From Polaromonas sp. (GTDB lineage: Bacteria; Pseudomonadota; Gammaproteobacteria; Burkholderiales; Burkholderiaceae_C): a stretch of 64,000 nt of DNA. This document shows positions 37,612-57,784 of the stretch, piece after piece. The DNA is taken from the NCBI GenBank assembly GCA_028292745.1, contig JAQGLT010000080.1, positions 1 to 64,000 on the forward strand, written 5' to 3'. The stretch's first letter is position 1; every line of letters begins with the position of its first letter. A program made the translations under genes and the position numbers. The notes beneath the pieces are model-generated. The model was not told the origin of the DNA. It made no database searches and saw only the letters and a list, made by a program, of their open reading frames with translations.

Positions 37612-37688
37612 GCGGCTGTAGCTCAGTTGGATAGAGTACTTGGCTACGAACCAAGGGGTCGTGGGTTCAATTCCTGCCAGCCGCACCA
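37612..37688 (+). tRNA. tRNA-Arg (anticodon ACG)
   Basis: Full cloverleaf: acceptor GCGGCTG / CAGCCGC, D-arm with AGCTCAGTTGGATAGAG, anticodon stem CTTGG / CCAAG with loop CTACGAA (ACG), T-arm GTGGGTTCAATTCCTGC, and encoded CCA. ACG is read as ICG after deamination and decodes CGU/CGC/CGA. The accessory island begins right after it, consistent with tRNA-Arg as integration target. I did not find a second copy of its 3' end in the window. Confidence 0.97.
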
Positions 37689-37708
37689 TAACATTATCGT
37701 TATAGATC

Positions 37709-37746
37709 AACAGCTTAGAGAATTTTTTCTCTAGGCTGTTTTTCTT
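37709..37746 (+). terminator. Terminator behind tRNA-Arg
   Basis: Hairpin AACAGCTTAGAGAA / TTCTCTAGGCTGTT followed by TTTC and more T residues. Confidence 0.8.
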
Positions 37747-37949
37747 TGTGTGCTCAACTTTTGCAAGTTCATGCCGTCTAGTCACCGTTCGGTCACCGTT
37801 GGCAGCTGGCTGTTGCGGGACTTCGTCAGACGTTCCCAGACTGAAATTTCCAAAACTTCGTCTTTCCTGACCTCGCCTGTCCAACTTTTACGGTAGCTAT
37901 GCGTTCAAACCTATGATGAGCTTTAAGCTCAATCTTCATAGGTCCCAGC

Positions 37950-38501
37950 ATGATAAATCCCACACTTGTTGAGCCCGAGCATCCTGATGCCGAGCGAAGC
38001 TATCACTTACTCACAGTAAATTTAGAGACCGAAGCGACGGCTGAATATTTTTTCAGGGTTCGCGAACACTCTACCGCAATGGCTTTCCTTGCCTCGGCAA
38101 ACTTGCTGGAAAGTCAAGCACTTCTACTATGGAAAAAAAGCGATAGCCTTGAGCTTGAAGATTTGCTCAGCCTTCTTGAACAGAACCCGCCAACGCCACA
38201 GCTAATTGCAATGATCATGCTGATGGCTAAGTCCACATTCAGATCAAAGTCTGATGGTGCCCTAGGCGGAAAAGCCAAAAGCGACAAGTTCAAACCTTTG
38301 AGGGAAAAACTCCAGTCAGATTGGAAAAATTCCACTGGTAGATTGAACAAAAAGCGTTTTGCTGACGAACGGTATTACGACTGGGAAAAAACCAATAAGG
38401 AGTTGATCGACAGTGGGCAACAACCAATGAAATTACCGCATGTTGATACGCCGAAAAGGTGGCTAAACAACATCAAGCGAGAAAATAACCAAAAAAAATA
38501 G
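37950..38501 (+). CDS. Unrecognised island protein
   Basis: 183 residues. N-terminal half helical (RVREHSTAMAFLASANLLES), C-terminal half very basic with KPLREKLQSDWKNSTGRLNK and TPKRWLNNIKRENNQKK. No family recognised; the basic end would suit a nucleic-acid contact. It is the first gene after the tRNA, with base composition clearly more AT-rich than region 1, so probably acquired with the island. Confidence 0.65.
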   Translation: MINPTLVEPEHPDAERSYHLLTVNLETEATAEYFFRVREHSTAMAFLASANLLESQALLLWKKSDSLELEDLLSLLEQNPPTPQLIAMIMLMAKSTFRSKSDGALGGKAKSDKFKPLREKLQSDWKNSTGRLNKKRFADERYYDWEKTNKELIDSGQQPMKLPHVDTPKRWLNNIKRENNQKK

Positions 38502-38551
38502 TATGCGTCGAACTGGCTAGGCGTATCTCAGCCCTCCAAAACGAAGCCAAA

Positions 38552-38580
38552 CTGCCCCTACACCACATTGAAAGGGGCAG
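38552..38580 (+). promoter_or_regulatory. Hairpin that covers the ribosome binding site of the AlpA-like gene
   Basis: CTGCCCCT (38552-38559) pairs perfectly with AGGGGCAG (38573-38580) across a 13-base loop. The AGGGG is the only ribosome-binding-site candidate for the ATG at 38584, so the stem would block translation until opened. Confidence 0.5.
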
Positions 38581-38583
38581 AAA

Positions 38584-39180
38584 ATGCGAGAAAAAAATAC
38601 CGTTGAAAACGATAAATCCAGGATAAATTTATCCAGGAATGGTCTTGGCAAAAATGTATGGCTGAGGTTGGTTCCTGCCGATTCCACTGGAATCCGGCAT
38701 GGCACGGCTGAAACCAAATTGGAAAATGGTTTAGTGTTGGCATCGGAAGAAGCTTGCCTCCATGATCCGACATCGTCATATGAAACAGAGATCGAGCGCA
38801 GCTTCCAAGCGAGCATTGGCGAAGAAGCTTTCAGCATAAATGAGCATCTAACACCTTCCTTTCACTCCAAGCCTTATGCCGAGACAAAAATTCCGTCGCG
38901 GTCGGCAAAGAACAGAAACGCGGTAAATAGAAAAAAGAAGCTTGATGCTCGTGCATTGACAGTGACGATCAATCTCGACATGCCTGGATTTCAGCGTCTC
39001 GAAAGCGTTCTGGATATCTTCCCGGTGTCCCGTGCTGCATGGTATGCCGGCATTGCTGAGGGTCGCTACCCTGCGGGAATTCAAATCGGCAAACGTTCTG
39101 TTGGTTGGTCGAATGCTTCGTTGAAGAAGCTTATTGAAGATTTGTCGAATCAAAGACTTCACGCGGATGATTCCAGCTAA
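38584..39180 (+). CDS. AlpA-like regulatory protein
   Basis: 198 residues. The last 65 residues (VLDIFPVSRAAWYAGIAEGR then YPAGIQIGKRSVGWSNASLK) match the AlpA/excisionase type of MerR-like winged helix found on prophages and integrative elements, where it activates excision or replication genes. The first 130 residues are polar, low in hydrophobics and not recognised. A stem-loop covers its ribosome binding site. It lies upstream of the DUF927 gene. Confidence 0.7.
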   Translation: MREKNTVENDKSRINLSRNGLGKNVWLRLVPADSTGIRHGTAETKLENGLVLASEEACLHDPTSSYETEIERSFQASIGEEAFSINEHLTPSFHSKPYAETKIPSRSAKNRNAVNRKKKLDARALTVTINLDMPGFQRLESVLDIFPVSRAAWYAGIAEGRYPAGIQIGKRSVGWSNASLKKLIEDLSNQRLHADDSS

Positions 39181-39389
39181 GGGCATCAAGATTTTTGGGC
39201 AATTTAGCCTAGTTCCGACGACCCGTTTATCGGACCGCGCCATATCCTAAATATGGCGGAAAGCCTGGTACAGCTCGCTACCGGCTTGCCTTTCATAGGC
39301 ATGCGCAAGCAGGGCAACCTCAACTGCTTTAATTTTTCAAAATCATCAGAATAAAGCGATGCCCGTCTGGGCATGGCCAAGGAAGACTC

Positions 39390-41204
39390 GTGTCAAAAAT
39401 AAGTGAAAACAAACCAGCCCTTAACAACGCAGTGCGTAAAGTGGCCAAGACTAAACCTCAGGACGAACTCCGCGCCAAGTTGTTCAAGCTTAAGAAAAAG
39501 AACGTTTTGGCTGAAACTGTGCAAGTACTCGGAAGACCGAACAAGCCCAAGGTGCGCGACCCCAACAGCGATCTGCCTCTACCCATTGCCGCTGTAAGGC
39601 ATGCCATGAATGCACATGGCGAGCCCTCTGAAAAACTGGTTGTGGTCACCACCACTGACGATGTTCATCTAGGGTATTTTGTACTTAACGAAACAGCACT
39701 TATCAGCGGTCAAAACAGCGAACTGGTCAAAATGGTGATCAAGTGCAAACTGCTTGCTTACAAGACGCCAAAGGGCATTCGAGAGTTGGCGGGCATCTTG
39801 TTACAAGCGGCTGACAAATTGATCTACATCGCTGAACACGACGGTTACCACATGGTGCAGGTCAGCGGCCACCATTACGAGTTTTTTGTCTGGCGCACGA
39901 AGGTTTATCCGCTAGGACGGCCCTGCCCAGTTCGCATCGTGCCTTTGATAGAGACTGCACCGATGCCGCCAGCGTCGGGCAGCCTGGACGATTGGAACGA
40001 GAACGTAGGCAAGCACATCGTGGTCAACCCCTACATGCTGGTGACCTTATGTGCAGCAGTTTCAGCCTTGCTCGTTCAGCCGTTTCGCTTGCCACGTCTG
40101 ATTTTGATGCTGGTCGGCGGCAGCAGCTTGGGCAAGTCCACGACGCAGCAGGCTATCAGGTCTTTATATGAGCGCTCTGACACCGACATCGACAACTTTT
40201 CGGGCACTGCAAAGGGTATTCAGGCATCGCTTCGACAGGACTGTGACAAGCCAAAAATGATGGAAGAACTGCGTCAGGCAGAAGACAAAGAAGCAATTAT
40301 CCAGTTGATTTTTGACCTCTCCAGCGGGGCGAGTCGCAAGACGAGCAACGCCAACCAACAGTTGGTTTGCTCTGCATCGTTGACCTGTGGCCTCATTATC
40401 TCGAACGAGAACACTTTTCACGAGACGGCAGGCGGGGCCACTATCACCGTTGGGCTTGCTGCACGCTTTATCGAATTGCATGCCAACGGCCCCCACGGAA
40501 TGTTTCACCAGATCCCAGAGGGCATGACGGCGGGCGAGTTTTCTGACATGCTCAAAACCACCAGCGCCCAGTTTTACGGTGCGTTTTGGAACGCATGGGT
40601 TCCAGCAGTTTCCAGGAATATCGAAAAGCTCCGAACTTGGGTGCCGGAAAATTTGCCGAAACTACAGGCCGAACTCTGCGCGGATATGAACATCAATGAT
40701 CCGGTCACCAAGCGGATGGTGAACGGCATGGCCGGCTGGGCATGTGCAGGCATCATTGCCCTCAAGCTCAAATTGCTGCCTGCCATAACAACGCGCGCCA
40801 CCATTGTGAATGCCCTGCGTTTGCAGCTTCGCGAGCACCTTGCCCGGCAAAAACACAACACAACACCTGTGGGTGAAAAAATCATCAGTGCAGTGCGCGA
40901 CGTACTTGACCGCCATGCTGGTCGTTTCCCCAACTTTTTGACCATCAATTCGACCGATCAGATGGGCATTTACGGCTACCGCAGGACAACGCAGCGCGAA
41001 ACGCTGTACCTGTTCTTGCCAACCGTGTTCGAGGAAATTTTGGGCAAGCAATTTGGCACGGAACCAGCATTGCGCGAGTTGAAAGCAGCTGGCTACCTTA
41101 GCACCGATTCCGAAGGCCACCAGCGGCAAATCCGCTTGTCCAAAAATGGGCGGCGCAAGCGGTTTTATGCAATCAAGGATGCCATTCGCTTCGATGCTGA
41201 GTGA
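39390..41204 (+). CDS. DUF927-domain ATPase (replication/mobilisation type)
   Basis: 604 residues. The central block LILMLVGGSSLGKSTTQQAI (Walker A GSSLGKST) with FSGTAKGIQASLRQDCDKPK and later SASLTCGLIISNENTF matches DUF927 proteins, helicase-like ATPases of mobile elements thought to act in replication. The GTG start at 39390 follows AAGGAAG. The C-terminal 90 residues (DQMGIYGYRR ... LREL KAAGYL) look like a winged-helix domain. A rolling-circle type gene follows 172 bases later. Confidence 0.82.
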   Translation: MSKISENKPALNNAVRKVAKTKPQDELRAKLFKLKKKNVLAETVQVLGRPNKPKVRDPNSDLPLPIAAVRHAMNAHGEPSEKLVVVTTTDDVHLGYFVLNETALISGQNSELVKMVIKCKLLAYKTPKGIRELAGILLQAADKLIYIAEHDGYHMVQVSGHHYEFFVWRTKVYPLGRPCPVRIVPLIETAPMPPASGSLDDWNENVGKHIVVNPYMLVTLCAAVSALLVQPFRLPRLILMLVGGSSLGKSTTQQAIRSLYERSDTDIDNFSGTAKGIQASLRQDCDKPKMMEELRQAEDKEAIIQLIFDLSSGASRKTSNANQQLVCSASLTCGLIISNENTFHETAGGATITVGLAARFIELHANGPHGMFHQIPEGMTAGEFSDMLKTTSAQFYGAFWNAWVPAVSRNIEKLRTWVPENLPKLQAELCADMNINDPVTKRMVNGMAGWACAGIIALKLKLLPAITTRATIVNALRLQLREHLARQKHNTTPVGEKIISAVRDVLDRHAGRFPNFLTINSTDQMGIYGYRRTTQRETLYLFLPTVFEEILGKQFGTEPALRELKAAGYLSTDSEGHQRQIRLSKNGRRKRFYAIKDAIRFDAE

Positions 41205-41376
41205 CTCCAGTTTGTCACGTTGTCACGTCCAAATTCCGGCACATATCAAACCATTTATGGCGTGCGTCAGTGCTGCCATAAGGCAAAAAAACGGCATTTG
41301 AACGCTCGCCGTAATACGCAACAAATCACTTGACTTTCACTTATTCAATCATTGACAAATTATTCGGAGTCTTCCA

Positions 41377-42672
41377 ATGGCTACCCTTCATCAGCCCTCA
41401 ACCTCTCGCCACTCATTTATTCAAATAAGTTTCCCAAAGGTTGAAAAACCAGTACAACGCGCTGCATCGGCTAACCAGCGTTGCATCAAAACCAAGCTGC
41501 CGAACCCGGCATTGATCAACCCGTCAACGCTATCCAAGCCGACCATGCGCTATCCACTGGCACCTTATGCCCTCAAGCCTGTAAGCGCATGGGCACCATT
41601 CTTTTCATGCCTGATTGATACTGTTGCCGTCCTGGTCAAAGTTCAGCATAAAGCTTTTTCACGTATTGCTGAAAACAATCCTAACGTGCGACGCAATGGC
41701 AATCATGTACTCAGCGTCAAGTCTGCCTTTTGCTGCAAAGTTTCAGCCCGTGTCCTGACCCGTGAAAACCGTGAAGTGCTTTACATCGAAGCCTCGATTC
41801 CGAAATTTTTGACCGGGCAGAATATTGTTGGTCGTGAAGATTTGCATGAACCATGCGTGCAGATGATTCTTGAAGTTCTGAGCCGCGCAGGCATCAAAGC
41901 GACGCCCGATGAAATTGCCGCTATTCAAGCGGGGCAATACACACTAGTACGGATCGATCATGCGCTCCACTGTGATACTGGCTCGCCCGAGCGTGGGGCA
42001 GCAGTAATGTCGGGCTTGCGATGCTTGGTGTATGCCAAGGCCAAGGCAGCAAGTGCTTATGGCAACGAAACCATTTATGTCCAGCAGCACAGTTCCCGCT
42101 GGACGTTGCGCATTTACCGCAAAGATTTGGAGTTGAAAAAGCGCAGCCGCCAGTTGCCCGCCAATGTTTATGGCCGGCAGCATCTGCTTGGTAAGGTTGA
42201 AGGCTGCGTGCGTCTCGAACTGGTGTTGCGCGCCCCGGAACTCAAGCGGCTGGGTTTGAGTGATCCGCTGGCTTGGAACCCCAATGGAGCCCAACAACGC
42301 ATGAAAGTATGGACTGACCGCTTGTCTCAATTGGAAGGGCGTGTGCCTGGCATTGAAAATATTGACAGCTTGAGCAACCTCAATCAGCTCAAGCTTCGTG
42401 CATGGCTTTTGGGCGACCATTGCGCTTTTTCGCGTACGCCTACAACCGTTGCCATCAGCCGCAAGGAAATCCTCCGTGTGACTGGAATTGATGTGCGTGG
42501 CGAGCCCAACGTAGCGCTTCAACGCCAGGCCATTACGTGTGTTCGCCACATTTTTCGGGCAGGCATCGGCTTGAAAAACTATGCCAGCAAGTGGGAAAAG
42601 CTTCGCCAGGGTACGAAATTCAGTAGTAACGATGGGTTGACCCGTTGCGTGCGGGCAAAAACCATCCGATAA
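41377..42672 (+). CDS. Rolling-circle replication initiator, phage gene II/X type
   Basis: 431 residues. Similar to phage/plasmid replication protein II/X: N-terminal part with IDTVAVLVKVQHKA, HVLSVKSAF and RIDHALHCDTGSPERG, then WTLRIYRKDLELKKRSRQLP and VRLELVLRAPELKRLGL, and a C-terminal X-like part. Gene II proteins nick the plus-strand origin and stay bound by a tyrosine; I cannot point to that Tyr with certainty. With the DUF927 and AlpA genes this suggests the island carries or derived from a replicating phage satellite or plasmid. Confidence 0.72.
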   Translation: MATLHQPSTSRHSFIQISFPKVEKPVQRAASANQRCIKTKLPNPALINPSTLSKPTMRYPLAPYALKPVSAWAPFFSCLIDTVAVLVKVQHKAFSRIAENNPNVRRNGNHVLSVKSAFCCKVSARVLTRENREVLYIEASIPKFLTGQNIVGREDLHEPCVQMILEVLSRAGIKATPDEIAAIQAGQYTLVRIDHALHCDTGSPERGAAVMSGLRCLVYAKAKAASAYGNETIYVQQHSSRWTLRIYRKDLELKKRSRQLPANVYGRQHLLGKVEGCVRLELVLRAPELKRLGLSDPLAWNPNGAQQRMKVWTDRLSQLEGRVPGIENIDSLSNLNQLKLRAWLLGDHCAFSRTPTTVAISRKEILRVTGIDVRGEPNVALQRQAITCVRHIFRAGIGLKNYASKWEKLRQGTKFSSNDGLTRCVRAKTIR

Positions 42673-42916: not shown

Positions 42917-43600
42917 TTGCCGAATCTCTCAAAAAAGATGCGGCGTCTCATATTGACTGAGCCAGCAATGATTTTGCACAACGGCAGCGCGAGCGAAATA
43001 ACCGGTAATTCGGCCCAGTTAGCATCGCAGCTAAGATGCCAGCAGAGCGAACACCTGTACGTGGCGGAAAAGCTCAACCGCGCCTCTGTGGCAGATGCCG
43101 ATGAAACCCGTACCAACAAGTTTTTTGCAGATGCTCGATTGCGATCCGCCGAACGGGCCACATTGGATGACTACAAGGCCAGCGGCTTCGATCGCGGTCA
43201 CTTGGCGCCAGCCGGTGACATGCCCACGGCGCAGGCCATGGCGCAGAGCTTTTCGCTTGCCAACATGGTTCCGCAAGCACCGGAACATAACCGGGGTGCT
43301 TGGGCCAAGTCGGTCGAGATGGCGACCCGGAAATATGCCAGCAGAGCCAGCGGCGACGTGTACGTCATCACAGGCCCGGTCTTCGAGCCAAGCATTGCCC
43401 AAAGCCCGGGCATCGGCCCCGGCCGCGTGCGCGTGCCCAAGTACCTCTTCAAGCTCGTGTACGACGAAGATCAGAAGCGGGCGTGGGCGCACTGGCATCT
43501 CAACGACAACGCGACCCGAGGCTCAAAGCCGATCAGCTATGGCGAGCTGGTCAGGCGCACTGGCATCGAGTTTCTGCCAGGGCTGCATCTGAGCGAATGA
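42917..43600 (+). CDS. DNA/RNA non-specific endonuclease (NucA/NUC1 type)
   Basis: About 220 residues. The beta-beta-alpha-metal motif is GFDRGHLAPAGDM with the catalytic His, followed by QSFSLANMVPQAPEHNRGAW with the metal-binding Asn. The usual secretion signal is missing: the frame begins with TTG 42917 or ATG 42938, and the first 20 residues do not look conserved, so the 5' end may be damaged. A 75-base diverged copy of the gene's 3' end occurs at 48755-48829. Confidence 0.82.
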   Translation: MPNLSKKMRRLILTEPAMILHNGSASEITGNSAQLASQLRCQQSEHLYVAEKLNRASVADADETRTNKFFADARLRSAERATLDDYKASGFDRGHLAPAGDMPTAQAMAQSFSLANMVPQAPEHNRGAWAKSVEMATRKYASRASGDVYVITGPVFEPSIAQSPGIGPGRVRVPKYLFKLVYDEDQKRAWAHWHLNDNATRGSKPISYGELVRRTGIEFLPGLHLSE

Positions 43601-43845
43601 TGCTAAGGCCTGGACGTTATGGCACCGCTGGGCAGAACGTGGCGTTCGTAGCGCGTCCTTAGCTGGTGGATATGCAGAGTTGGAGTGCGAAATTTGCTTT
43701 AAGGCTCGCAGTTACCCGGCGTAGAGGATAGCCGCTGCGCTGTAGGAAAGCATTTACTCACCAACGCGAGTTTCCCTTCATCGGCCATGGCTGAACGGCC
43801 TCAACATAGCGTAGAAATCACATGTCCGGCATTAAGGAGTGACTA

Positions 43846-44094
43846 ATGGCCAAGCTAAACGAGAAGGAGCGCGACGGTCTTACCGGGGCTCAGTTCGCGT
43901 TCGAGAAGCAGCGCAAAGAACCGCTTGAAAACGCGAGCCACGTCCGAAACGCCGTGGCTCGCTTTAACCAAGTTGAGGGCGTGACCGACGCGGAGCGCGA
44001 TGCCGCGTGGAAACGCATACAAGCGGCCGCCAAGAAGTTTAACGTTGACCTGCACGAAACCGGATGGCGGGAAATTGGCGGTAAAAAAAGTTGA
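43846..44094 (+). CDS. DUF6582-like small protein
   Basis: 82 residues starting MAKLNEKERDGLTGAQFAFE, with ENASHVRNAVARFNQVEGV and DAAWKRIQAAAKKFNVDL. I recall this pattern (hydrophilic, helical, common in soil Proteobacteria and on elements) as DUF6582; no function is known. AAGGAG lies seven bases before the ATG. Confidence 0.8.
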   Translation: MAKLNEKERDGLTGAQFAFEKQRKEPLENASHVRNAVARFNQVEGVTDAERDAAWKRIQAAAKKFNVDLHETGWREIGGKKS

Positions 44095-44189
44095 AGAAGC
44101 AGCGCGTGCATTGCGCACCCTGCCTTTTTTGCCCAATTTTTTATGTCACGGTGCCATACTGTTGAGGCTCAACTTAACTGGAAGTCTCA

Positions 44190-44582
44190 ATGCCTCGCCC
44201 AATTCTTGACGAGACCCACATTGATCCAACTATTCGCAGCAAGATCGCTGGGCATCAGCAGGCCATTGTGCAAGAGGTGATGAAGGCGATCGGTGACAAC
44301 GCTGTGGTCGTGGTCGGAATGGGCATGAATCCCTTCCCCAAGAAGGCATGCAAGACGCTGGATCAGATAAATCAGCCGTACCGATATTTGGAGTTTGGCA
44401 ATTACTTCAACACATGGCGTCAGCGAAATGCGCTCAAGATGTGGACTGGCTGGCCCAGCTTTCCAATGGTGTTTGTCCAAGGCACGCTGATTGGTGGCGC
44501 TAGCGATCTACGGGCACTGATCGACAGCGGTGAATTCAAGAAAATGCTGGCGCTTCCATCTTCGGCGGATATGCGGCTTTAA
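44190..44582 (+). CDS. Glutaredoxin-family protein
   Basis: 130 residues with a thioredoxin fold: AVVVVGMGMNPFPKKACKTL, then YRYLEFG, WTGWPSFPMVFVQGTLIGG (the cis-Pro loop) and DLRALIDSGEF, the usual glutaredoxin end. The classic CPYC/CGFS site is replaced by NPFPKKAC, leaving one Cys a few positions late, so redox activity is uncertain. Its stop lies one base from a fragment of a hydrolase gene on the other strand. Confidence 0.75.
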   Translation: MPRPILDETHIDPTIRSKIAGHQQAIVQEVMKAIGDNAVVVVGMGMNPFPKKACKTLDQINQPYRYLEFGNYFNTWRQRNALKMWTGWPSFPMVFVQGTLIGGASDLRALIDSGEFKKMLALPSSADMRL

Positions 44583-44583
44583 T

Positions 44584-44714
44584 TCATTTCATCTCTTTCA
44601 AGAACTCCAGCACGTCCCTGACCGCTTCACGCCGCACCGATTCATCGCCGCCATCGGCGCGGCCCTTGCCAATGCATTCTTTGCGCGCGGCTTTCCACTC
44701 GTCCCACCCGTTGA
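44584..44714 (-). pseudogene. 3' fragment of a dienelactone-hydrolase-like gene
   Basis: About 131 bases that match, with roughly nine differences by eye, the 3' end of the complete hydrolase gene at 48916-49046, including the stop and the final FLKEMK. Similarity ends abruptly at 44714. The rest of the gene is absent here, so this is a remnant left by recombination. Confidence 0.8.
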
Positions 44715-45191
44715 CTGTGCCGACAAGATGGCATCAAAGCCACGCTAGCAGCTTTCAGGCACACCGAACACGCTCGGAGCATCAGTGCCAATTGGCGATC
44801 GCACCAGCCATCATGGTGGCAGTCCCAGTCATACTGATCAAAAGCTTGCGATGCAGAAAGCAAATCGGTCTTTTCTAGATGAAGCGTTTGACACCGCTGC
44901 TTGATTAAGCATCACTCAGATGATAGTTCTTCTCTTTCCTCTGGTGCCGCTATTGGGATAGTTTTTACAACTGCATATATGGCTATATTGGTGATCTAAC
45001 TGTTGTGCTTCTAAGGGCTGTCTCGGTTTTATCTTACTTAGAAGGTTACCTCTCACAGCAGTCAATCTGTAGCATTTCTACTATGCGTTAGCAAAATTTA
45101 CACAGTCATGTAAAGCATTGCGCTTTTACTTGACGTCAGCAATGGCAGGAGGACGATTGAACTCGTCAGTCCAAATCGAGGGAGTCATTGT
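44715..45191. other. Left flank of the recombinase/ParB cassette
   Basis: 477 bases with no supported gene. The part after 44880 is AT-rich and should contain the promoter of the recombinase operon. The left attachment end of the cassette, if it is mobile, would lie here. Confidence 0.4.
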
Positions 45192-46760
45192 TTGAATAAC
45201 TTGTCGCCGGATGCTAGTGCTACGCCTTTAATCGGTGATGAAATGCCTGTTGTTGAATATGTCCGGATGTCAACCGAGCATCAGCGGTATTCAACAGAAA
45301 ATCAGTCTCAAGCAATTGCTGAATATGCAGCCCAACATGGCATGCGCATCATCCGCACCTACACTGATGCTGGAAAAAGTGGGCTGAACATTCGAGGTCG
45401 CGCTGGGCTTCAACAGTTACTTCACGACGTCCAGCAGCCCAAGCCGGATTTCAATGCTGTCCTTGTCTATGACATCAGTCGTTGGGGACGATTTCCCGAT
45501 CCTGATGAAGCTGCCGTCTATGAGTACTCGTGTAAGCAGCGAGGCATCAAAGTCATTTACTGTGCAGAGCCTTTCAATAATGATGGATCGCTACCTTCTA
45601 CAGTATTGATTGGTATCAAGCGAAGCATGGCGGCGGAGTACAGCCGAGAGCTTTCGGTAAAAGTCTTTGCCGGCCACCGCAATCTTGTGCAGCTGGGCTA
45701 TCGACAGGGCGGTGCTCCAGGGTTGGGCTTGCGTCGTCAACTAATCGATGAAGAACACAATATAAAAGGCATTTTGTCGCGTGGCGAAAAAAAGAGCATT
45801 CAAACTGACCGCGTGATACTGATCCCTGGTCCTGCCGAAGAGGTGTCGCTTGTTCATCAAATTTATCGTCACTTCTTGGATGACTGCATGCCTGAACGCG
45901 TCATTGCTTCGACTCTAAACCGTCAGGGCCACACTTCCGATACCGGAGTTCCTTGGACTCGAGGCACCATCCATCAGATTCTCACTAATGAGAAATACAT
46001 AGGCAATAACGTTTACAACCGTACATCATTTAAGCTGAAGATCAAACACGCGCGAAATGAACCGGCCGACTGGATTCGCAAGGATGGTGCATTTGAAGCA
46101 GTGGTTCCACTTGATCAGTTTGCCCGCGTGCAGGAAATTATTGCCAGCCGTTCGCACCATCTTGATGACGCACAGATGCTTGATGTACTTAAAAAAATGT
46201 TGCAACAGCACGGCGAATTGTCTGGTCTTGTTATAGATGAGGAGGATGGCGCACCATCCAGTTCAGCGTATCGGAGTCGTTTCGGAAGTCTTCTGCGAGC
46301 ATACAGTTTGGTTGGATTCACACCAAAACGTGACTATGCCTACCTCGAAATAAATCGGGCACTGCGGCGTCAGCACCCGGAACAGATCGCGGAAATGTCG
46401 GCATCCATTGAGCGAATGGGCGGTTGGGCCAGTGTTAATTCATCAACCGATTTACTGACGGTAAATGGAGAATTCACTGTTTCATTGGTTATTGCACGAT
46501 GCAAGCCAACGCCTGCCGGAAGTTACCGTTGGCGCATCCGCTTCGATGCTAGCTTGCAACCAGATATCACAGTAGTAGCGCGTATGAACCATGCAAACCG
46601 ACGTGCGTTCGACTACTACGTATTGCCTTCCATTGATTTCTCTTCAGAAGTCCTACCCACCATGGAAGACAACGGCTTCACGCTGGACGCCTACAGGATG
46701 GACACGCTTGATTTGTTCTACAACCTGGCAGGGCGTGTGCCCTTAGAGCAAGCTGCATGA
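45192..46760 (+). CDS. Large serine recombinase
   Basis: 522 residues. The resolvase domain has VEYVRMSTEHQRYSTENQ with the nucleophile Ser, YTDAGKSGLNIRGRAGLQQL and VLVYDISRWGRFPD. A recombinase domain follows with RHFLDDCMPERVIASTLNRQ and PWTRGTIHQILTNEKYIGN. The zinc-ribbon/coiled-coil end typical of phage integrases is not obvious, and the last 120 residues are unfamiliar. Start is a TTG at 45192 behind GAGGGAG; ATG 45243 is possible. Stop overlaps the next gene by ATGA, so it is expressed with two ParB-like proteins. Confidence 0.88.
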   Translation: MNNLSPDASATPLIGDEMPVVEYVRMSTEHQRYSTENQSQAIAEYAAQHGMRIIRTYTDAGKSGLNIRGRAGLQQLLHDVQQPKPDFNAVLVYDISRWGRFPDPDEAAVYEYSCKQRGIKVIYCAEPFNNDGSLPSTVLIGIKRSMAAEYSRELSVKVFAGHRNLVQLGYRQGGAPGLGLRRQLIDEEHNIKGILSRGEKKSIQTDRVILIPGPAEEVSLVHQIYRHFLDDCMPERVIASTLNRQGHTSDTGVPWTRGTIHQILTNEKYIGNNVYNRTSFKLKIKHARNEPADWIRKDGAFEAVVPLDQFARVQEIIASRSHHLDDAQMLDVLKKMLQQHGELSGLVIDEEDGAPSSSAYRSRFGSLLRAYSLVGFTPKRDYAYLEINRALRRQHPEQIAEMSASIERMGGWASVNSSTDLLTVNGEFTVSLVIARCKPTPAGSYRWRIRFDASLQPDITVVARMNHANRRAFDYYVLPSIDFSSEVLPTMEDNGFTLDAYRMDTLDLFYNLAGRVPLEQAA

Positions 46761-47659
46761 AAAATTCGCCTGAGCGAATCGAAATGATTCCGATTGACTT
46801 TATCACTGTTCCTAATCCGCGTGTGCGCAATCCAAAAATTCACAGGGATATGACGGATAGTATTGAAAAGTTAGGCTTAAAGCGCCCCATTACGGTCAGA
46901 CGTATCGTCAGCGTACATGACAAAGAGCAGAAATATGCATTGGTCTGCGGCCAGGGCAGGATGGAATCCTGCCAGATGCTTGGGCAAAAAGAAATTGCTG
47001 CTGTGATCGTAGATGTCGATGCAGAAACCGGTCATGTGATGAGCATTGTTGAAAATGTGGCACGTCGTTTGCCAAGGGCGAATGAAATGCTTGAGCAGGT
47101 CGGAAGCTTAAAACGTCGAGGCTATAACGATGTCGAGATAGCAGCAAAAATTGGATGTACGCCTTCTTGGGTTAACAACGTCACGTATCTTTTGGCGCAT
47201 GGAGAAAAGCGTCTACTTGCAGCTGCGGGGGCTGGACATATTTCACTCCATTTAGCAGCAAGCATTTCAAGAGCAAACGATGAGGATGCGCAGAGACTAC
47301 TTCTGGAGGCATATGAAAAAGGCGATCTTAAAGGGAAAAATGTGACTGCGGTGAGGCTAATTTTGGATCAGCGCTCAAGGATTGGTAAAAGCTTAAATAA
47401 CTCTTTTACTACTCGCAACAGTGCCAGGCGTCACATGACCACAGAAGACCTTCGCAAAATTTATCTGAGTGAAACTCAGAAACACAAACTGAATCAAAAA
47501 AAAGCAGAACACACGCAAAGTGCACTACTGCTTGCGCAACAAATATTCAAGGAGTTGTTTGCCAGTGAAGATTTTTGTTCCGTTCTCAAGTCTGAAAAGC
47601 TGATATCAGTACCGTTACCCTTGGCAGAACTTGCTCGTAGAGGTGGAAACTTGTCATGA
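46757..47659 (+). CDS. ParB-like protein 1 of the recombinase cassette
   Basis: 300 residues. ParB N-terminal domain: IDFITVPNPRVRNPKIHRDM, LGLKRPITVRR, and YALVCGQGRMESCQMLGQKE in place of the GERR box. An HTH follows (YNDVEIAAKIGCTPSWVNNV). This is ParB/Spo0J/RepB type, but no ParA gene is nearby, so classical plasmid partition is unlikely. It is coupled by ATGA overlaps to the recombinase and to the second ParB gene. Confidence 0.85.
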   Translation: MKNSPERIEMIPIDFITVPNPRVRNPKIHRDMTDSIEKLGLKRPITVRRIVSVHDKEQKYALVCGQGRMESCQMLGQKEIAAVIVDVDAETGHVMSIVENVARRLPRANEMLEQVGSLKRRGYNDVEIAAKIGCTPSWVNNVTYLLAHGEKRLLAAAGAGHISLHLAASISRANDEDAQRLLLEAYEKGDLKGKNVTAVRLILDQRSRIGKSLNNSFTTRNSARRHMTTEDLRKIYLSETQKHKLNQKKAEHTQSALLLAQQIFKELFASEDFCSVLKSEKLISVPLPLAELARRGGNLS

Positions 47660-48549
47660 AAAAATTTCAGTCTGTACGGTTGGGTTTTCAACGCGACTGC
47701 ATTGATATACCGCTCGATCTTTTATGTGCATCCAAATCTCTGGGAGAAGGGATCAAGCAAACAACGAAATATTTACAGATACATGCTTCTGTAAAAGCAG
47801 TCGGCTTAGTGGAGTCGGTAGTAGTTGCGCCTAGCACTGATAAGCCTGGGGCCTTTATTGTGCTAGACGGTCATATGCGTGTGGAAGCACTGCGGGATTT
47901 AGGGCATTCAAGCGTGAGTTGTCTGCTATCTACCGACGATGAAGGTTATACCTATAACAAGCAGGTCAACAGACTCTCTGCAATCCAACAGCACAGAATG
48001 ATCATTAAAGCTGTGGAAGACGGCACTCCTATTGCAAAGCTGGCAAATGCACTGCACATTTCGGAAAACGCGATTCGTGACCGCTTCAAGTTGCTGGACG
48101 GCATCTGTAATGAAGCTATCGCCTTACTGGCTGATAAGCCTGCAACACTTGGAATGTTCAGAATACTTCGGCAGATGAAAGCGTTCCGACAGATCGACGT
48201 TGCGCAAGCGATGATTAATCTAAACAGCTATTCAATAAGGCTTGCTTTAGCAATGCTGCATGCAACATCTCCTGAACAGCTGATAGAAAAAGCTGCATCT
48301 AAAATCAAGCAGGATGGTCTTTCAGAGACACTACAGCGTGTAGAACGTGAGTTGGCCGCTGTCCAGGCGGAAACCAAACTTCTTGAAGAAAGTTATGGGC
48401 CTGCAAACCTTCAATTGATGATCATAAAAACACATATCAAAGCTTTGCTAGAAAACGCAAGCATTGTGAAATGGCTGGCAAAGTTTCATCGAGAATATTT
48501 GCAGCAATTGCAGTTAATTGCGGAGATAAAACAGCTGCCAGCCGAGTGA
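47656..48549 (+). CDS. ParB-like protein 2 of the recombinase cassette (RepB C-terminal type)
   Basis: 297 residues. A diverged ParB domain: VKAVGLVESVVVAPS and FIVLDGHMRVEALRDLGHSS in the position of the GERR box, then HTH IAKLANALHISENAIRDRFK and a helical C-terminal half ending in AEIKQLPAE. The last gene of the cassette; a strong terminator follows. Two different ParB proteins downstream of a serine recombinase form an arrangement I recall seeing in Proteobacteria without a described function. Confidence 0.82.
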   Translation: MKKFQSVRLGFQRDCIDIPLDLLCASKSLGEGIKQTTKYLQIHASVKAVGLVESVVVAPSTDKPGAFIVLDGHMRVEALRDLGHSSVSCLLSTDDEGYTYNKQVNRLSAIQQHRMIIKAVEDGTPIAKLANALHISENAIRDRFKLLDGICNEAIALLADKPATLGMFRILRQMKAFRQIDVAQAMINLNSYSIRLALAMLHATSPEQLIEKAASKIKQDGLSETLQRVERELAAVQAETKLLEESYGPANLQLMIIKTHIKALLENASIVKWLAKFHREYLQQLQLIAEIKQLPAE

Positions 48550-48646
48550 TATTTAGTTCTACAAAAAAGCATATTCAAGTAAATTTTAGCGGTTAGCATC
48601 AATCCGCCCCAGAATCACCGATCACCTTGTGAGCAAGGATCAAAGC

Positions 48647-48686
48647 ACTCCCAAAAAAGTTCTAACACACTTTTTTGGGAGTTTTT
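48647..48686 (+). terminator. Terminator of the recombinase/ParB operon
   Basis: Perfect stem ACTCCCAAAAAAG / CTTTTTTGGGAGT with a short loop and a following T-run. Confidence 0.88.
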
Positions 48687-48754
48687 CAACAGAATTAGTT
48701 GAAAACTGCCATTGGGCGCACTAGCATCTAAATGACAACAGCATGCGATCTTTA

Positions 48755-48829
48755 AAAGCGATCAGCTATGGCGAACGGGTCAAGCGTACTGGCACTGAGT
48801 TTCTACCTGGGCTACATTTAAGCGAATGA
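48755..48829 (+). pseudogene. 3' fragment of the DNA/RNA endonuclease gene
   Basis: Encodes KAISYGERVKRTGTEFLPGL then HLSE and stop, versus KPISYGELVRRTGIEFLPGL then HLSE in the full gene at 42917-43600: five changes by eye over 24 residues. Similarity ends upstream near 48750 and fades downstream of the stop. Confidence 0.8.
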
Positions 48830-48915
48830 TGCCAAACGCCGGCCATCATAGCGCCGCAAGTCCAGAGAGTGGCCTGCATACCGCTTCCATATCTGGACAG
48901 ACTAGCAGCGTTAGT

Positions 48916-49929
48916 TCACTTCATTTCTTTCAAGAACTCCAGCACGTCCTTGACTGCTTCGCGCCGCACCGATTCATCGCCGCCATCGGCGCGACCCTTG
49001 CCGATGCATTCCTTGCGCGCGGCTTTCCACTCGTCCCATCCGTTGATCACCACACCCGTCTTGTAATTGCGCGCTTCGCCAAGTCCAGCGCGTTTCGGAT
49101 CAATGAACACTTCGAGCGAGCAGTTCTTGGCGCTTTCGGCGTTCGGATTGATGTGCCACTTGGCAAAGCCGTCGAACGCATGGTACGCATTCGGATAAAT
49201 CTTCCATTTCACATTGGCGCCGGATTTTTCGTTGACGTTCTTGTAAAGATCCGTGCAGTTTTGCACGCCGCCATGGCCGACGTCCTTGCCGCCGAGCAGC
49301 GCGAGCATCGGCACATTGTTGGTGTTGCCCCGGTCCAGCCGCGTGCGCACGGTGCAGCCGCCGGGATAGACCGCAATTTGCGCGGCAAACTTGAGATCGT
49401 CTTTGATGATCGGCCGGCGCGCTGAGTCCCAATAGCTTTCATATGTGACCGCCCCGCCACGAGAAAAGCCCATGATCGCGATGCGCTTGCTGTCAATCTG
49501 CGGATGGGTCGCCAGCAGCTTGAGCGCATAGAACCCATCGGCCACGCTGGCCGCCACATCGAGCTGACCCTGGTTGGTGTCGGTCTGGTCGATGCCGCGC
49601 GGCTTGAAACTGTCCACCACGAACGCCGCGTAGCCGGCTTCATTGAGTTCCTTGACCCAGACCGAGTACTGGGCTGGCGTGACACCGATGGAGCCATGCA
49701 TCAAGACCACCGCGCCGACTTTGCCATTGATGGTCTTGGGCATCACCAGATCACCTGTCACGACGGCAGCGGTGGTGTTCTTCTTGAACTCGCGCACGTA
49801 TTCCCAGCGGCTGGGCGGCGTGATGGAGGCATATTCGATCCGGCCGACTTGGCCACCCGCCAGATCGTCCAGGGGCGCCGCGCTGGCAAAGCTGGAGGCA
49901 AGAAGCAGCGCAAGTAAACATTTTTTCAT
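48916..49929 (-). CDS. Dienelactone-hydrolase-family alpha/beta hydrolase, secreted
   Basis: 337 residues from ATG 49929 (MKKCLLALLLASSFASAAPL, a signal peptide). Alpha/beta-hydrolase motifs: VVLMHGSIGVTP (oxyanion region), IMGFSRGGAVTYESYW with the nucleophile Ser, and YPNAYHAFDG with the catalytic His. Dienelactone-hydrolase-like proteins act on a range of esters, so the substrate is unknown. The frame open upstream of 49929 is a shadow. Its 3' 131 bases are duplicated at 44584-44714. Confidence 0.85.
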   Translation of the reverse strand: MKKCLLALLLASSFASAAPLDDLAGGQVGRIEYASITPPSRWEYVREFKKNTTAAVVTGDLVMPKTINGKVGAVVLMHGSIGVTPAQYSVWVKELNEAGYAAFVVDSFKPRGIDQTDTNQGQLDVAASVADGFYALKLLATHPQIDSKRIAIMGFSRGGAVTYESYWDSARRPIIKDDLKFAAQIAVYPGGCTVRTRLDRGNTNNVPMLALLGGKDVGHGGVQNCTDLYKNVNEKSGANVKWKIYPNAYHAFDGFAKWHINPNAESAKNCSLEVFIDPKRAGLGEARNYKTGVVINGWDEWKAARKECIGKGRADGGDESVRREAVKDVLEFLKEMK

Positions 49930-53289: not shown

Positions 53290-53845
53290 GGTGAAGGCCT
53301 TTGTGGTTGGTGATGACGGGACGTGCAACGCCCTCCGCAATGAATGACGGATAGCTGGGCGTGATCACTTTTCAATTTGTGCAGCGAACGCTGCGATGCC
53401 GTTAGCTTTCTGGGCTACACGTCGGAAGTGTGTTTAAGCGGTCAACAGGAACTGCATTTCAAGCAGTCGTTCGACGAACCGCCAGATGAGGTGCTTTGGG
53501 GAGCAGGCTTACAGCAAAGCAAGACGTTGAAGCTCCATGTCGGATGGAACTCAAAAGCCTGGAAACGAAAGGCGGCCGCAGGTCAGCCAGGATGAGCAAC
53601 AGGACGCGCAAGCCCGATGTCGGCCAGAGAGGGGAGGGACTGCTTTACTTCAAAGGCTGTAGCAGGTGAGCAGTTGAGGTGAACCGCTTGCAGCTTGAAA
53701 TTGCTAAAACCACATAAAAACAGCTGTTTTTTGCTGGTTCAAGCTTGAAATTAAGTGGACAAAAACTTAATTTATGTAATTTTACCACACTTTTCACATT
53801 AAAAACACTAAAATTGTGTGCAGTATTTTGAGCATTGGAGATTTT
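53290..53845. other. Gap before the toxin-antitoxin operon
   Basis: About 556 bases. A 72-codon frame at 53377-53595 (GTG start) has no family likeness or clear ribosome binding site and I leave it out. The AT-rich end (53700-53845) should hold the promoter of the toxin-antitoxin pair. Confidence 0.4.
53786..53820 (+). promoter_or_regulatory. Imperfect inverted repeat before the antitoxin gene
   Basis: CACACTTTT and AAAATTGTGTG face each other across an AT-rich spacer, 26 bases before the antitoxin start. Type II antitoxins usually bind such repeats to repress their own operon. Confidence 0.45.
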
Positions 53846-54157
53846 ATGGCGATTTCAATCCGCGATATCGTGGCCTTCTCAAAAGCACGGACTAGCTTGT
53901 CAAGCTTGGTTGAGGCTGTTGAGAAGGGTGCGGAAAAGATCATCACCAAAAATGGTGAACCGGCAGTTGCCTTGATCAGCGCCGAGCGGCTGGAGCACTA
54001 TCACAGGCTGGAGCGCGCCCACATCCATTTGCTGCTGCTGGGCGAAGCGGAAAGGGGCTGGGCCGACATTGAAGCGGGCCGGACAACCAATGCGCGTGAA
54101 GGCTTAGCGGCGTTGAAAGCGAAGCGAAAGCAACCGCTGGCGGGTAGCAATGGCTGA
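53846..54157 (+). CDS. Phd/YefM-family antitoxin
   Basis: 103 residues from ATG 53846, which has GGAG seven bases upstream. The N-terminal DNA-binding half contains MAISIRDIVAFSKARTSLSS and EKIITKNGEPAVALISAERL, the Phd/YefM signature. The C-terminal half should wrap the toxin; it is rather basic at the end. Overlaps the toxin gene by eight bases. Confidence 0.88.
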   Translation: MAISIRDIVAFSKARTSLSSLVEAVEKGAEKIITKNGEPAVALISAERLEHYHRLERAHIHLLLLGEAERGWADIEAGRTTNAREGLAALKAKRKQPLAGSNG

Positions 54158-54611
54158 AACACCCGGCGATGGCATACCGCCTGCTGACGAACCGGCTACT
54201 TTTTCGGTGGAAGTCCGTTACACCGCGAACTTTGAAGCCAACCTCCAGAGCATCGAAGCGTTCTGGACCGAAAACGATTTTGTGCAAGGCTACGACCGTT
54301 TGCTTGATGAACTGTTGGGCACCGTGGTGACGAATCTGGAGCGGCATCCGCGCATGGGCCGGTCGTTTATGAGCCGCAAACCAGAGTCCATTGAAGCGCA
54401 AAAGCTGCATGAAAAGCTCCAGGCGAAGATGGCAGCGCATGACCAGCCAGCCGACGTGCGCGAGTGTGTGACGACGGACTATCTGGTGCTTTACGCCATT
54501 CTAGAGGCGGCTGCCGACAAGCCCTCAGTCATCTATTTAGCTTCGATCAAGAACCACAAGCAGTTGTCTTTTGATTTCGAGCGGTTGTGGGCTCCATTCC
54601 AGTCAAGCTGA
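54150..54611 (+). CDS. RelE/ParE-superfamily toxin
   Basis: 153 residues. The RelE/ParE fold is visible in VEVRYTANFEANLQSIEAFW, NLERHPRMGRSF and TTDYLVLYAILEAAADKPSV then IYLASIKNHKQLSFD, with the usual Arg and Tyr positions near the C-terminus. Whether it cuts mRNA (RelE) or poisons gyrase (ParE) cannot be told. It is longer than most by about 50 residues, partly a Pro-rich N-terminus and partly an insert (EAQKLHEKLQAKMAAHDQ). Confidence 0.82.
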   Translation: MAETPGDGIPPADEPATFSVEVRYTANFEANLQSIEAFWTENDFVQGYDRLLDELLGTVVTNLERHPRMGRSFMSRKPESIEAQKLHEKLQAKMAAHDQPADVRECVTTDYLVLYAILEAAADKPSVIYLASIKNHKQLSFDFERLWAPFQSS

Positions 54612-54857: not shown

Positions 54858-54989
54858 ATGTTCAATCACAATCATGAAGCACTGTTTCGCTTACTGGGCA
54901 AACATTACACGTTTCAAGCCAATGAGGGAAGCGGCGGTACAAGCAAATTCGGAAGCTTGGAAAAATCACATCAGTTAGTTAGCTCATGA
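54858..54989 (+). CDS. 43-codon leader ORF coupled to the methyltransferase gene
   Basis: MFNHNHEALFRLLGKHYTFQ then ANEGSGGTSKFGSLEKSHQL and VSS. GGGGG sits seven bases before the ATG, a much better site than anything before the methyltransferase start, and its stop overlaps that start as ATGA. It could feed ribosomes to the methyltransferase gene or encode a small controller. No family recognised. Confidence 0.5.
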   Translation: MFNHNHEALFRLLGKHYTFQANEGSGGTSKFGSLEKSHQLVSS

Positions 54990-57784
54990 ATGCTGTAGAA
55001 ATAGAACAAGCCATATCGGAACTTGCCCTTCAGCCTTTCGACGCGGCGGAGTTTTCTTTCGCCTTTCTAGCCGCATTCGGTAATAAAGACACTACTCTCA
55101 AGCGCCTGCGTACCGGCAACAACAATGCGTCGGATGTGGCAGGAGGTGTGCTGCTGCGAAACAACATCCACATGGCAGTTTGCAAAAGCGGCTATGTGGA
55201 TGAAACTCTCAAGTCGTTACGCGCCAGCCCAGCCACCACGAAAGCAAAGGCCAAATTCATCCTGGCCACTGACGGGCAAACCCTTGAAGCCGAAGAGCTG
55301 ATTGGTGGCGAAACAATCAACTGTGCTTACACGAATTTCCCAAATTATTTCGGATTCTTCTTACCGCTGGCTGGTATCTCCACCATAAAGGAGATCAAAG
55401 ATAACCCTATTGACGTGCGTGCCACCGGGCGGCTGAACAAGCTGTACGTTGAGTTGTTGAACGAAAACCCGGATTGGGCTAAAGAGGAACGCCGTGCTGA
55501 CATGAATCACTTCATGTCCCGGCTGGTGTTCTGCTTTTTTGCGGAAGACACCGACATTTTTAATGGCGAGGGACTGTTTACCAAAACCTTGGAGCAGATG
55601 AGTGAGCGCGACGGCTCAAATGCCCATAAGGTGCTGGAAACGATCTTTCGCGCTATGAATATCAAGGTTGCCAACCGTGCTGTTGCTCAGCCTCGTTTAC
55701 CAAACTGGGCTAATGCCTTCCCTTATGTCAACGGTGGGCTTTTCTCTGGCAGCACCGAGGTACCACGCTTCACGCGTATTGCTCGCACTTATTTATTTCA
55801 TGCTGGCAGCCTGAAATGGCGCGAAATAAACCCTGACATTTTCGGCAGCATGATCCAGGCCGTTGCTGACGATGACGAGCGCGGCGCACTGGGCATGCAC
55901 TACACCAGTGTGCCCAATATCCTGAAAGTGTTGAACCCATTGTTTTTGGACGGCTTGCGCATGCAACTCGAAGCGGCAGGAGACAACAAAGCAAAACTTC
56001 TAAACTTGCGCAAGCGCATGGCGCGCATCCGCGTCTTTGATCCGGCCTGCGGTTCAGGCAACTTCTTAGTAATTGCCTACAAGCAAATGCGCGAGATTGA
56101 AGCGGAGATCAACCGCCGCAGAAGTGAAGAGCACCTTGGCAGCGAGATTCCGCTGACAAATTTTAGGGGAATCGAGTTACGCAATTTCCCAGCTGAAATC
56201 GCACGGTTGGCGCTCATCATTGCCGAGTTTCAGTGTGATGTTCTATACCGAGGTCAGAAAGACGCTTTGGCCGAGTTCCTTCCTTTAAATGCGCAGAATT
56301 GGATTGTTTGCGGTAATGCCTTGCGACTAGACTGGCTAAATGTGTGCCCGCCGACCGGTACCGGTGTAAGGCTGGTCGAGGACGATTTGTTTGGTACAAC
56401 GCAGAATCAATCGGAAATAGACTTTGAAAACGAGGGTGGGGAAACGTACATTTGCGGTAATCCACCGTACCTTGGTAGTACATGGCAATCAGCGACACAA
56501 AAAGACGACCTTAGAGCTATTTTTGATTTCCGTTGCAAAAACTGGAAATCTTTGGACTATGTTGCTGGATGGTTTATGAAAGCTGCCGATTATGGCGGTC
56601 GAACCCCATGCGCAGCCGCATTTGTGTCTACAAACTCTATCTGCCAAGGACAACAAGTTTCGCTACTTTGGCCGTTAATTTTTGCTACCGGCCACGAGAT
56701 AGCATTTGCTCACACCTCATTTAAATGGGCAAATTTGGCTAGCCATAACGCAGGTGTGACAGTGGCCATTGTGGGTATCGCCAACCCTGCTCCAAAAGTG
56801 CGACGGCTTTTCACCATCGCCGATAAATCTGAGACCGTCGTCAAGGACGTTTCTAATATCAACGCCTATTTGGTTGCGGGCACCAATGTGATTGTGGACA
56901 AACTGGTTCGCCCAATGGGTGAGCATGCAGAGATGGTCCGAGGAAATATGCCGTACGACGGTGGCCATTTGCTCTTGTTACGTGATGAAGTAGCCATGCT
57001 GGGATTAAATTCAGAACAGCAAGAGCGCTTCATTCGGCGCATCTACGGTTCCGCTGAATTTATTCGCGGATTAGAACGCTACTGTTTGTGGATTGACAAC
57101 GCATATTTGAAAGAAGCAATGGAAATTGAGACTATTGCTCACCGCATTAAAAAGGTCCGCAATATGCGACTTGCGAGTACAGACAAAGGTGCAAGCTCTT
57201 TAGCAGTTCGCGCACATCAAATGCGTGAAATGAATTTTGGAAAGCATCACACAATTGGCGTGGCAGGAATTTCATCTGAAAATCGACCATTTCTTCCATG
57301 CGGCTTACTATCCTCATCTCAAACGGTTACAAATAAAGTATTCGCTCTCTATGATGCCCCACTTTGGAATATGGCACTGATTGCTTCTCGTCTACATTGG
57401 GTCTGGATTGGCACGGTTTGCGTGCGGATGCGTACCGATTTTTCGTATTCCAATACTCTTGGCTGGAATACTTTCCCAGTCCCCCTGCTCACTGAGAAAA
57501 ACAAACTCGACCTTACTGCCTGCGCCGAAAACATCTTGTTGGCACGTGAAGCGCATTTTCCCGCCACCATTGCTGGCCTGTACGACGCGGAAACTATGCC
57601 TGAAAACCTGCGTTACGCCCACGAGTGCAACGATGAGGTGCTAGAGCGCATTTACATCGGGCGCCGCTTCAAAAACGACACTGAGCGGCTGGAAAAACTG
57701 TTTGAGCTATATACAAAGATGACTGGGGCGGCTGCCAAGGCCAAGCTAGCAGCAAATGTTACAAGGATGAAAAAAGCATTATGA
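54986..57784 (+). CDS. MmeI-like class I SAM-dependent DNA methyltransferase
   Basis: 932 residues. Order of parts resembles MmeI-type proteins: an N-terminal domain (about 1-160), a helical spacer with NHFMSRLVFCFFAEDTDIF, then the methyltransferase with motif I FDPACGSGNFLVIAY near 350 and motif IV CGNPPYLGS near 490 (adenine N6 type), and a target-recognition/C-terminal part with WNTFPVPLL. I do not see a PD-ExK nuclease motif in the N-terminal domain, so cleavage probably depends on the partner genes. Linked by ATGA to the helicase gene. Confidence 0.88.
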   Translation: MNAVEIEQAISELALQPFDAAEFSFAFLAAFGNKDTTLKRLRTGNNNASDVAGGVLLRNNIHMAVCKSGYVDETLKSLRASPATTKAKAKFILATDGQTLEAEELIGGETINCAYTNFPNYFGFFLPLAGISTIKEIKDNPIDVRATGRLNKLYVELLNENPDWAKEERRADMNHFMSRLVFCFFAEDTDIFNGEGLFTKTLEQMSERDGSNAHKVLETIFRAMNIKVANRAVAQPRLPNWANAFPYVNGGLFSGSTEVPRFTRIARTYLFHAGSLKWREINPDIFGSMIQAVADDDERGALGMHYTSVPNILKVLNPLFLDGLRMQLEAAGDNKAKLLNLRKRMARIRVFDPACGSGNFLVIAYKQMREIEAEINRRRSEEHLGSEIPLTNFRGIELRNFPAEIARLALIIAEFQCDVLYRGQKDALAEFLPLNAQNWIVCGNALRLDWLNVCPPTGTGVRLVEDDLFGTTQNQSEIDFENEGGETYICGNPPYLGSTWQSATQKDDLRAIFDFRCKNWKSLDYVAGWFMKAADYGGRTPCAAAFVSTNSICQGQQVSLLWPLIFATGHEIAFAHTSFKWANLASHNAGVTVAIVGIANPAPKVRRLFTIADKSETVVKDVSNINAYLVAGTNVIVDKLVRPMGEHAEMVRGNMPYDGGHLLLLRDEVAMLGLNSEQQERFIRRIYGSAEFIRGLERYCLWIDNAYLKEAMEIETIAHRIKKVRNMRLASTDKGASSLAVRAHQMREMNFGKHHTIGVAGISSENRPFLPCGLLSSSQTVTNKVFALYDAPLWNMALIASRLHWVWIGTVCVRMRTDFSYSNTLGWNTFPVPLLTEKNKLDLTACAENILLAREAHFPATIAGLYDAETMPENLRYAHECNDEVLERIYIGRRFKNDTERLEKLFELYTKMTGAAAKAKLAANVTRMKKAL

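Follow-up and report, generated by a model that had tools for sequence, protein, structure and literature searches.

A recombinase-ParB-ParB trio set between diverged copies of gene ends in Polaromonas sp. and other bacteria: a candidate small integrative element

The trio and its duplicated flanks

The DNA discussed in this report, referred to as the window, is a 64,000-nucleotide stretch of Polaromonas sp. (assembly GCA_028292745.1, contig JAQGLT010000080.1, positions 1 to 64,000). An operon of three genes spans 45192-48549 and encodes a large serine recombinase and two ParB-like proteins, here called ParB1 and ParB2; we refer to the three genes as the trio. An initial annotation, made from the letters alone, had placed the recombinase and two ParB genes between diverged copies of the same gene ends, and we confirmed that this arrangement is real. 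The trio and the features at its right end are as follows.

45192-46760, + strand: large serine recombinase, 522 aa, with Resolvase (20-164) and Recombinase (216-320) domains
46757-47659, + strand: ParB1, 300 aa, with a ParB N-terminal domain and a RepB domain
47656-48549, + strand: ParB2, 297 aa, with a RepB domain and a weak TIGR00180 match
48647-48687, + strand: terminator-like hairpin, a 14-bp perfect stem (48647-48682) and then a T run
48683-48705, no strand assigned: 8-bp inverted repeat with a 7-base loop, adjoining the right edge; candidate site

The two recombinase domains are clearly matched (PF00239, E 2.6e-23; PF07508, E 1.1e-19). The C-terminal ~200 aa are conserved, yet have no Pfam match. 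A zinc-ribbon domain is typical of large serine recombinases, although it does not define them; none was found in the window recombinase, for which only two families were listed at E ≤0.1. Seven residues of the catalytic domain (Y23, R25, S27, Q31, S96, R97, and R100) are invariant across 32 aligned recombinases, and we take R25, S27, R97, and R100 to be the catalytic serine and arginines. Pfam did not detect a ParB_N domain in ParB2. Predicted structures have a mean pLDDT of 76 for the recombinase and 79.5 for ParB2, and no trio protein matched a PADLOC-DB 2.0.0 model at E ≤0.001. The gene coordinates bear out the ATGA overlaps first proposed to join the three genes, and the perfect stem followed by T residues bears out the strong terminator proposed to close them.

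The flanks of the trio are direct repeats of one locus, with the following parts.

42917-43600, + strand: DNA/RNA non-specific endonuclease (nuclease) gene, possible target
43484-43600, + strand: nuclease 3' end, left (intact) copy of the repeat
43846-44094, + strand: DUF6582 gene, left copy only
44190-44582, + strand: glutaredoxin-like gene, complete in the left copy only
44551-44714, - strand: hydrolase 3' remnant (44584-44714) and glutaredoxin gene end, left copy
48713-48829, + strand: nuclease 3' end, right remnant
48882-49046, - strand: right-copy counterpart, the intact hydrolase end and ~33 bp of the glutaredoxin gene end
48916-49929, - strand: dienelactone-hydrolase-family gene (hydrolase), intact

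On the left the order is nuclease, DUF6582, glutaredoxin-like gene, and hydrolase 3' end; on the right it is nuclease 3' end, ~33 bp of the glutaredoxin gene, and intact hydrolase, with DUF6582 and most of the glutaredoxin gene missing. The hydrolase-side repeat (44551-44714 versus 48882-49046) matches in 145 of 165 columns (88%), and the nuclease-side repeat (43484-43666 versus 48713-48896) in 136 of 184 (74%). Translated, the hydrolase remnant shares 93% identity with its full gene over 44 aa, and the nuclease remnant 73% over 40 aa, with one stop. Since flank-versus-flank BLAST gave E values of 7e-55 and 3e-27, the similarity is not due to chance. The left-flank genes and the hydrolase remnant at 44584-44714 are as originally described, but the homology begins a little earlier, at 44551, and so the right copy apparently retains ~33 bp of the end of the glutaredoxin gene. 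Likewise, the right nuclease remnant exists but is longer than the 75 bases first assigned to it.

Occurrence and conservation of the trio

A scan of genome contigs with the window recombinase returned at least 581 relatives, of which the best 80 were examined (one locus, L075, is a near-copy of another, L068). ParB1 lies downstream of the recombinase on the same strand in all 80 loci and ParB2 in 77; the trio is fully intact in 64, and the others reach contig ends or are flagged with frameshifts or stops. The three proteins co-evolve, their distance matrices correlating at 0.914, 0.914, and 0.963 (Mantel, 64 loci). The ParB genes were said to stand beside the recombinase without ParA, and this was borne out: with the Soj of the source genome as the single query, no ParA match at E ≤1e-5 was found in the 80 loci with flanks of up to 10 kb. 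The search of other genomes that had been suggested thus revealed a widely occurring unit of just three genes. In one locus (L047, 12327-13979), ParB1 is cut short and no ParB2 follows in the remaining 1.6 kb of contig.

The trio is shared by distant hosts. In a midpoint-rooted recombinase tree, the window falls in a group with 100/100 support that mixes Burkholderiales, Methylophilus, and Lysobacteraceae; other copies are found in Alphaproteobacteria and on one Acidobacteriota contig from a metagenome-assembled genome. Presence is patchy: besides the source genome itself, a strong match was found in 1 of 60 relatives, and one further genome gave weak RepB-like matches only. Three genomes had ParB2 in a sample of 229 from the class to which the window belongs; the source genome is one of the three, and another of them, G532, has kept the trio only in part. 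In the alphaproteobacterial sample the count was 16 of 240, one of the 16 being the known center genome. ParB2 relatives are present on 104 plasmid records, and the trios on the plasmids read are intact.

Of 80 loci selected from 162 relatives in IMG/VR, 66 have a complete trio and 13 of the remaining 14 reach a contig end. Nine of these 80 contigs end within ~25 bp of the recombinase match; we presume that this reflects a boundary rule of the provirus caller and did not use it as evidence. An ordinary phage integrase was considered and rejected, because, among 95 phage records matched by the recombinase, 80% coverage of the query was reached in just one; for the Escherichia coli-type ParB2, 80% coverage was seen in one of four matching records.

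Two kinds of neighbor recur upstream. By eye, a divergent gene resembling helix-turn-helix regulators lies just upstream of the recombinase in 49 loci (L031, L062, L025, and 46 others), and ParE-like toxin genes, also on the upstream side, make up a cluster from seven loci (L068, L075, and five others).

The E. coli relative and its right edge

A distant relative, with a recombinase 47% identical to that of the window, is common in E. coli: 650 of 5,426 complete genomes had some match and 618 had a match over most of the query (11-12%), the laboratory strain BL21 included. All 650 places are chromosomal. Together with the failure to find ParA, this runs counter to the case named as one that could overturn the first reading, namely a trio always accompanied by parA and an origin on plasmids.

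In the strains that retain the right flank, the trio lies between two diverged copies of the 3' end of an integrase gene that stands beside ssrA; the copies differ by ~21%. Copies of other genes flank the trio in other hosts, much as the nuclease and hydrolase ends do in the window. The right edge in E. coli is sharp. In a comparison of 15 loci, two unrelated types of right flank part from the common sequence at one shared position, which lies 48 bp beyond the ParB2 stop codon (four loci of one type and nine of the other). The integrase remnant of the first flank type begins at about this edge. The candidate element edge in E. coli reads

AAGTATACTTACACAAC

Nothing in common was found in the 600-bp flanks of 13 beta- and gammaproteobacterial loci beyond one weak pair.

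Flank duplications at other loci

We made a translated comparison of 3 kb to the left of the trio with 1.5 kb to the right. A direct duplication beside the trio was detected in 8 of 128 testable loci, compared to 0 of 119 pairs with exchanged flanks. The duplicated genes in the closest cases are as follows.

L303 and L307 (E. coli): integrase
L278 and L288: RfaH/NusG-like, named by eye without a family call
L274: small open reading frame (ORF)
Window: nuclease/hydrolase locus

Because L303/L307 and L278/L288 are related pairs, there are at most six independent cases, of which four are close and clear. At the DNA level, direct repeats that flank the trio and lie no more than 2 kb from it on either side were absent from the other 73 loci of the first set. 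The impression from this first BLAST comparison, that the duplication is unique to the window, was overturned by the IMG/VR and E. coli loci.

A structured RNA downstream of alphaproteobacterial trios

In 52 of 81 sequences (the 80 loci and the window), the 52 being alphaproteobacterial, the end of the ParB2 match is followed after 29-102 bp by a conserved segment that behaves as a structured, covarying RNA. Over 46 sequences, 98.4% of the proposed pairs are standard, compared to 93.8% in shuffled alignments, and cells with changes on both sides number 63, compared to 21.5, although these figures benefit from a structure built on this very alignment, and the contrast with shuffles is inflated by related sequences. 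Sliding the structure along the alignment lowers pairing to 43% or less, and at seven pairs both partners have changed with pairing preserved. Most of the loci inspected have, after the RNA, a longer hairpin whose sequence varies.

The RNA is linked to the trio. Among the 240 alphaproteobacterial genomes, 11 have the RNA, 16 have ParB2, and 9 have both, one of these nine being the chosen center genome (Fisher P 9.5e-11). The two RNA-only genomes carry a 3' remnant of ParB2 directly before the RNA (one by tblastn, one by eye). The idea that the RNA serves as an independent cassette site was rejected, since each of the 13 RNA matches in the alphaproteobacterial sample comes immediately after ParB2 or a degraded remnant of that gene (in G216 the remnant was read by eye). 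The RNA pattern is also seen in 43 IMG/VR contigs (L318-L360). In one locus (L015, 18367-18511), a second RNA copy lies 5 kb downstream, not directly after ParB2, and between the copies are a PLD/helicase-like gene and a PIN-like gene (by eye). Two trios with internal deletions (L184, 4881-5024; L185, 1482-1622) retain part of the recombinase and the RNA.

Rfam gave no gathering-score match in four RNA-bearing loci, and the sole Rfam match in L052 (Rhodobacter capsulatus; E 0.87) lies outside the 144-base core; the RNA is apparently a new conserved RNA of alphaproteobacteria. It had no match at E ≤1 in the window's own genome, and, in a scan of 43 loci, no credible match in the beta- and gammaproteobacterial ones or in seven trio-bearing alphaproteobacterial ones (L020, L033, L051, L054, L061, L066, and L067). 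A long hairpin was considered as a general right end and rejected: the 22 non-RNA loci, window included, resembled control windows (mean stem 6.9 versus 6.8), with the window's 14-bp stem the exception among them.

Interpretation of the trio as a probable integrative element

We lean toward reading the trio as a small integrative element of ~4 kb with ParB-like accessory proteins, which enters genes and supplies a replacement for the end that it displaces. DNA cleavage and joining would fall to the serine recombinase. A constant pair of ParB proteins, with no ParA found nearby, points to helpers in recombination, and ParB1 and ParB2 would be DNA-binding proteins acting in synapsis, site choice, or direction rather than a plasmid partition system. 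The element would insert within genes, with a substitute 3' end keeping the target whole, and the displaced old 3' end would stay on the far side of the insert. The right edge would lie a little past ParB2, and the DNA beyond it, defense genes included, would vary by locus. Catalysis, mobility, attachment sites, and the roles of both ParB proteins and the RNA are what we infer from these features. An earlier reading of the locus was that a mobile unit connects two related loci; the flanking copies are there, but they may fit better as one split target gene.

Several observations weigh against this reading. In the window, the left copy also has a hydrolase remnant, so that a single insertion into the nuclease gene needs a longer donor segment or a second event. 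In the 80 loci, nine ParB genes carry frameshift or stop flags. A single contrast, of one flank type with another, defines the E. coli edge; two further loci, L307 and L317, leave the common sequence earlier, and the edge comes from a relative only 47% identical to the window in its recombinase. A comparison of empty and filled sites had been proposed for mapping exact ends, and the E. coli remnant search found no empty site: the right remnant has two places in all 60 listed rows (62 genomes), as expected where both integrase copies are present. Nor does the left E. coli integrase show a break at the expected junction when compared to a 78.6% identical integrase family, in genomes that may or may not carry the trio. 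The duplications of L083 and L295 lie at a distance of 0.65-2.3 kb and may be unrelated, and 120 of the 128 loci have no such duplication, which could be due to age, gain of cargo, precise insertion, or a false model.

The trio might instead be a passenger of genomic or defense islands moved by others, such as tyrosine integrases or Tn7-like genes, and serve as an island regulator, stabilizer, or phase switch. We consider this somewhat unlikely, although the neighbors are suggestive. A PADLOC scan took in ORFs of ≥200 aa lying no more than 6 kb from the trio: 214 on the downstream side and 188 on the upstream side, from 65 loci in each case, after removal of the trio genes themselves, the cluster of upstream regulators, two antisense clusters, L075, and the window. 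Among the families listed, the matches include BrxC, BrxL, and PglZ of BREX, DrmD and DrmMII of DISARM, ZacABC, MzaABC, IetAS, ThsB of Thoeris, Aga_SIR2, a methyltransferase, SoFic, AbiE, and PifA; this is a listing without a random-locus control, and we claim no rate from it. An integrase gene adjoins the trio in E. coli, and Tn7-like TniA, TniB, and TniQ genes adjoin it on Agrobacterium and Piscinibacter plasmids (L147, L188-L190). Two things speak against a passenger role: the unit stays the same from one unrelated setting to another, and it has beside it direct duplications of genes that look like targets.

The flanking copies might also have arisen independently of the recombinase, by an old tandem duplication or by homologous recombination of two related loci. 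This is consistent with the divergence of the copies (7-26% in the window, besides the E. coli value) and with the lack of DNA repeats at the other 73 loci, but we regard it as unlikely: a like arrangement with different genes (integrase, RfaH/NusG-like, small ORF, and nuclease) occurs in separate hosts, exchanged control pairs never show it, and the E. coli remnant starts at about the edge of the common unit. Finally, we reject as highly improbable a remnant of a plasmid partition locus, to which the RepB/ParB domains and the plasmid-borne ParB2 relatives could point, because the single Soj query found no ParA, the E. coli places are all chromosomal, the trios on the plasmids read are intact, and the recombinase lies upstream in all 80 loci (themselves fetched by recombinase).

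If the trio is a working integrative element, ParB proteins would be shown to act in site-specific recombination, and a module linked to defense islands would be added to those known. A more elaborate form of the integrative reading, to which we give little credence, is that ParB clamp proteins (with the RNA, in alphaproteobacteria, at the element edge) steer the recombinase into genes and install a replacement end, making the trio a gene-adding device of defense islands.

Comparison with known systems

The trio recombinase shares Resolvase and Recombinase domains with the large serine recombinases and serine integrases, and TP901-1, SPbeta YokA, and TnpX are among its PDB sequence matches. 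It differs from them in a C-terminal 200 aa unmatched by Pfam or PDB sequences and in its two ParB-like partners. CcrB of the SCCmec CcrA/B/C group is its best NCBIfam match (E 9.5e-16), and the idea of a cassette is common to both, but the score of 57.5 bits is far below the curated cutoff of 900 for membership, and ParB partners take the place of Ccr pairs. The ParB_N and RepB domains are common to the trio ParBs and the RepABC/ParABS systems, from which the trio differs in having no detected ParA and in its link to a recombinase. IS110/IS1111 elements likewise combine a recombinase with a noncoding RNA, the bridge or seek RNA, at the element edge; the trio has a different recombinase class, and its RNA is conserved, without an evident variable guide loop.

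The unit is found in 11-12% of complete E. coli genomes and is seemingly undescribed. The annotated plasmid and E. coli records examined name the trio genes generically only, and full-text searches, whose coverage excluded subscription papers and preprints, found no description of the trio. The available part of PMC6536676 deals with Paracoccus prophages and does not describe the trio. In the part available of another report (PMC12529663), recombinases are said to stand often beside anti-phage genes clustered in defense islands, with function unknown. The PinQ-type recombinase treated there is, like that of the trio, a serine recombinase in an anti-phage setting, but according to the title it differs in inverting cryptic prophage DNA.

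Genomic surroundings

Downstream in the window, a type IIG restriction-modification gene lies 6.4 kb from the trio, outside the unit, near a putative toxin-antitoxin pair; the region to the left is also listed.

54986-57784, + strand: type IIG restriction-modification gene (PADLOC E 2.4e-276)
53816-54611: Phd/ParE-like toxin-antitoxin pair (by eye)
37612-42672: tRNA-Arg, then genes for an AlpA-like regulator, a DUF927 primase/helicase-like protein, and a filamentous-phage-type G2P-like replication protein

The last of these regions, immediately to the left of the trio locus, resembles an integrated element in its own right. Elsewhere, SoFic models match six upstream ORFs (in L059, L065, L080, and other loci), and the internally deleted trio of L184 is followed by brxR-A-B-C-like genes (by eye). 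DUF1403 is annotated with the trios on Agrobacterium plasmids, and ScpB genes are present in two of the three.

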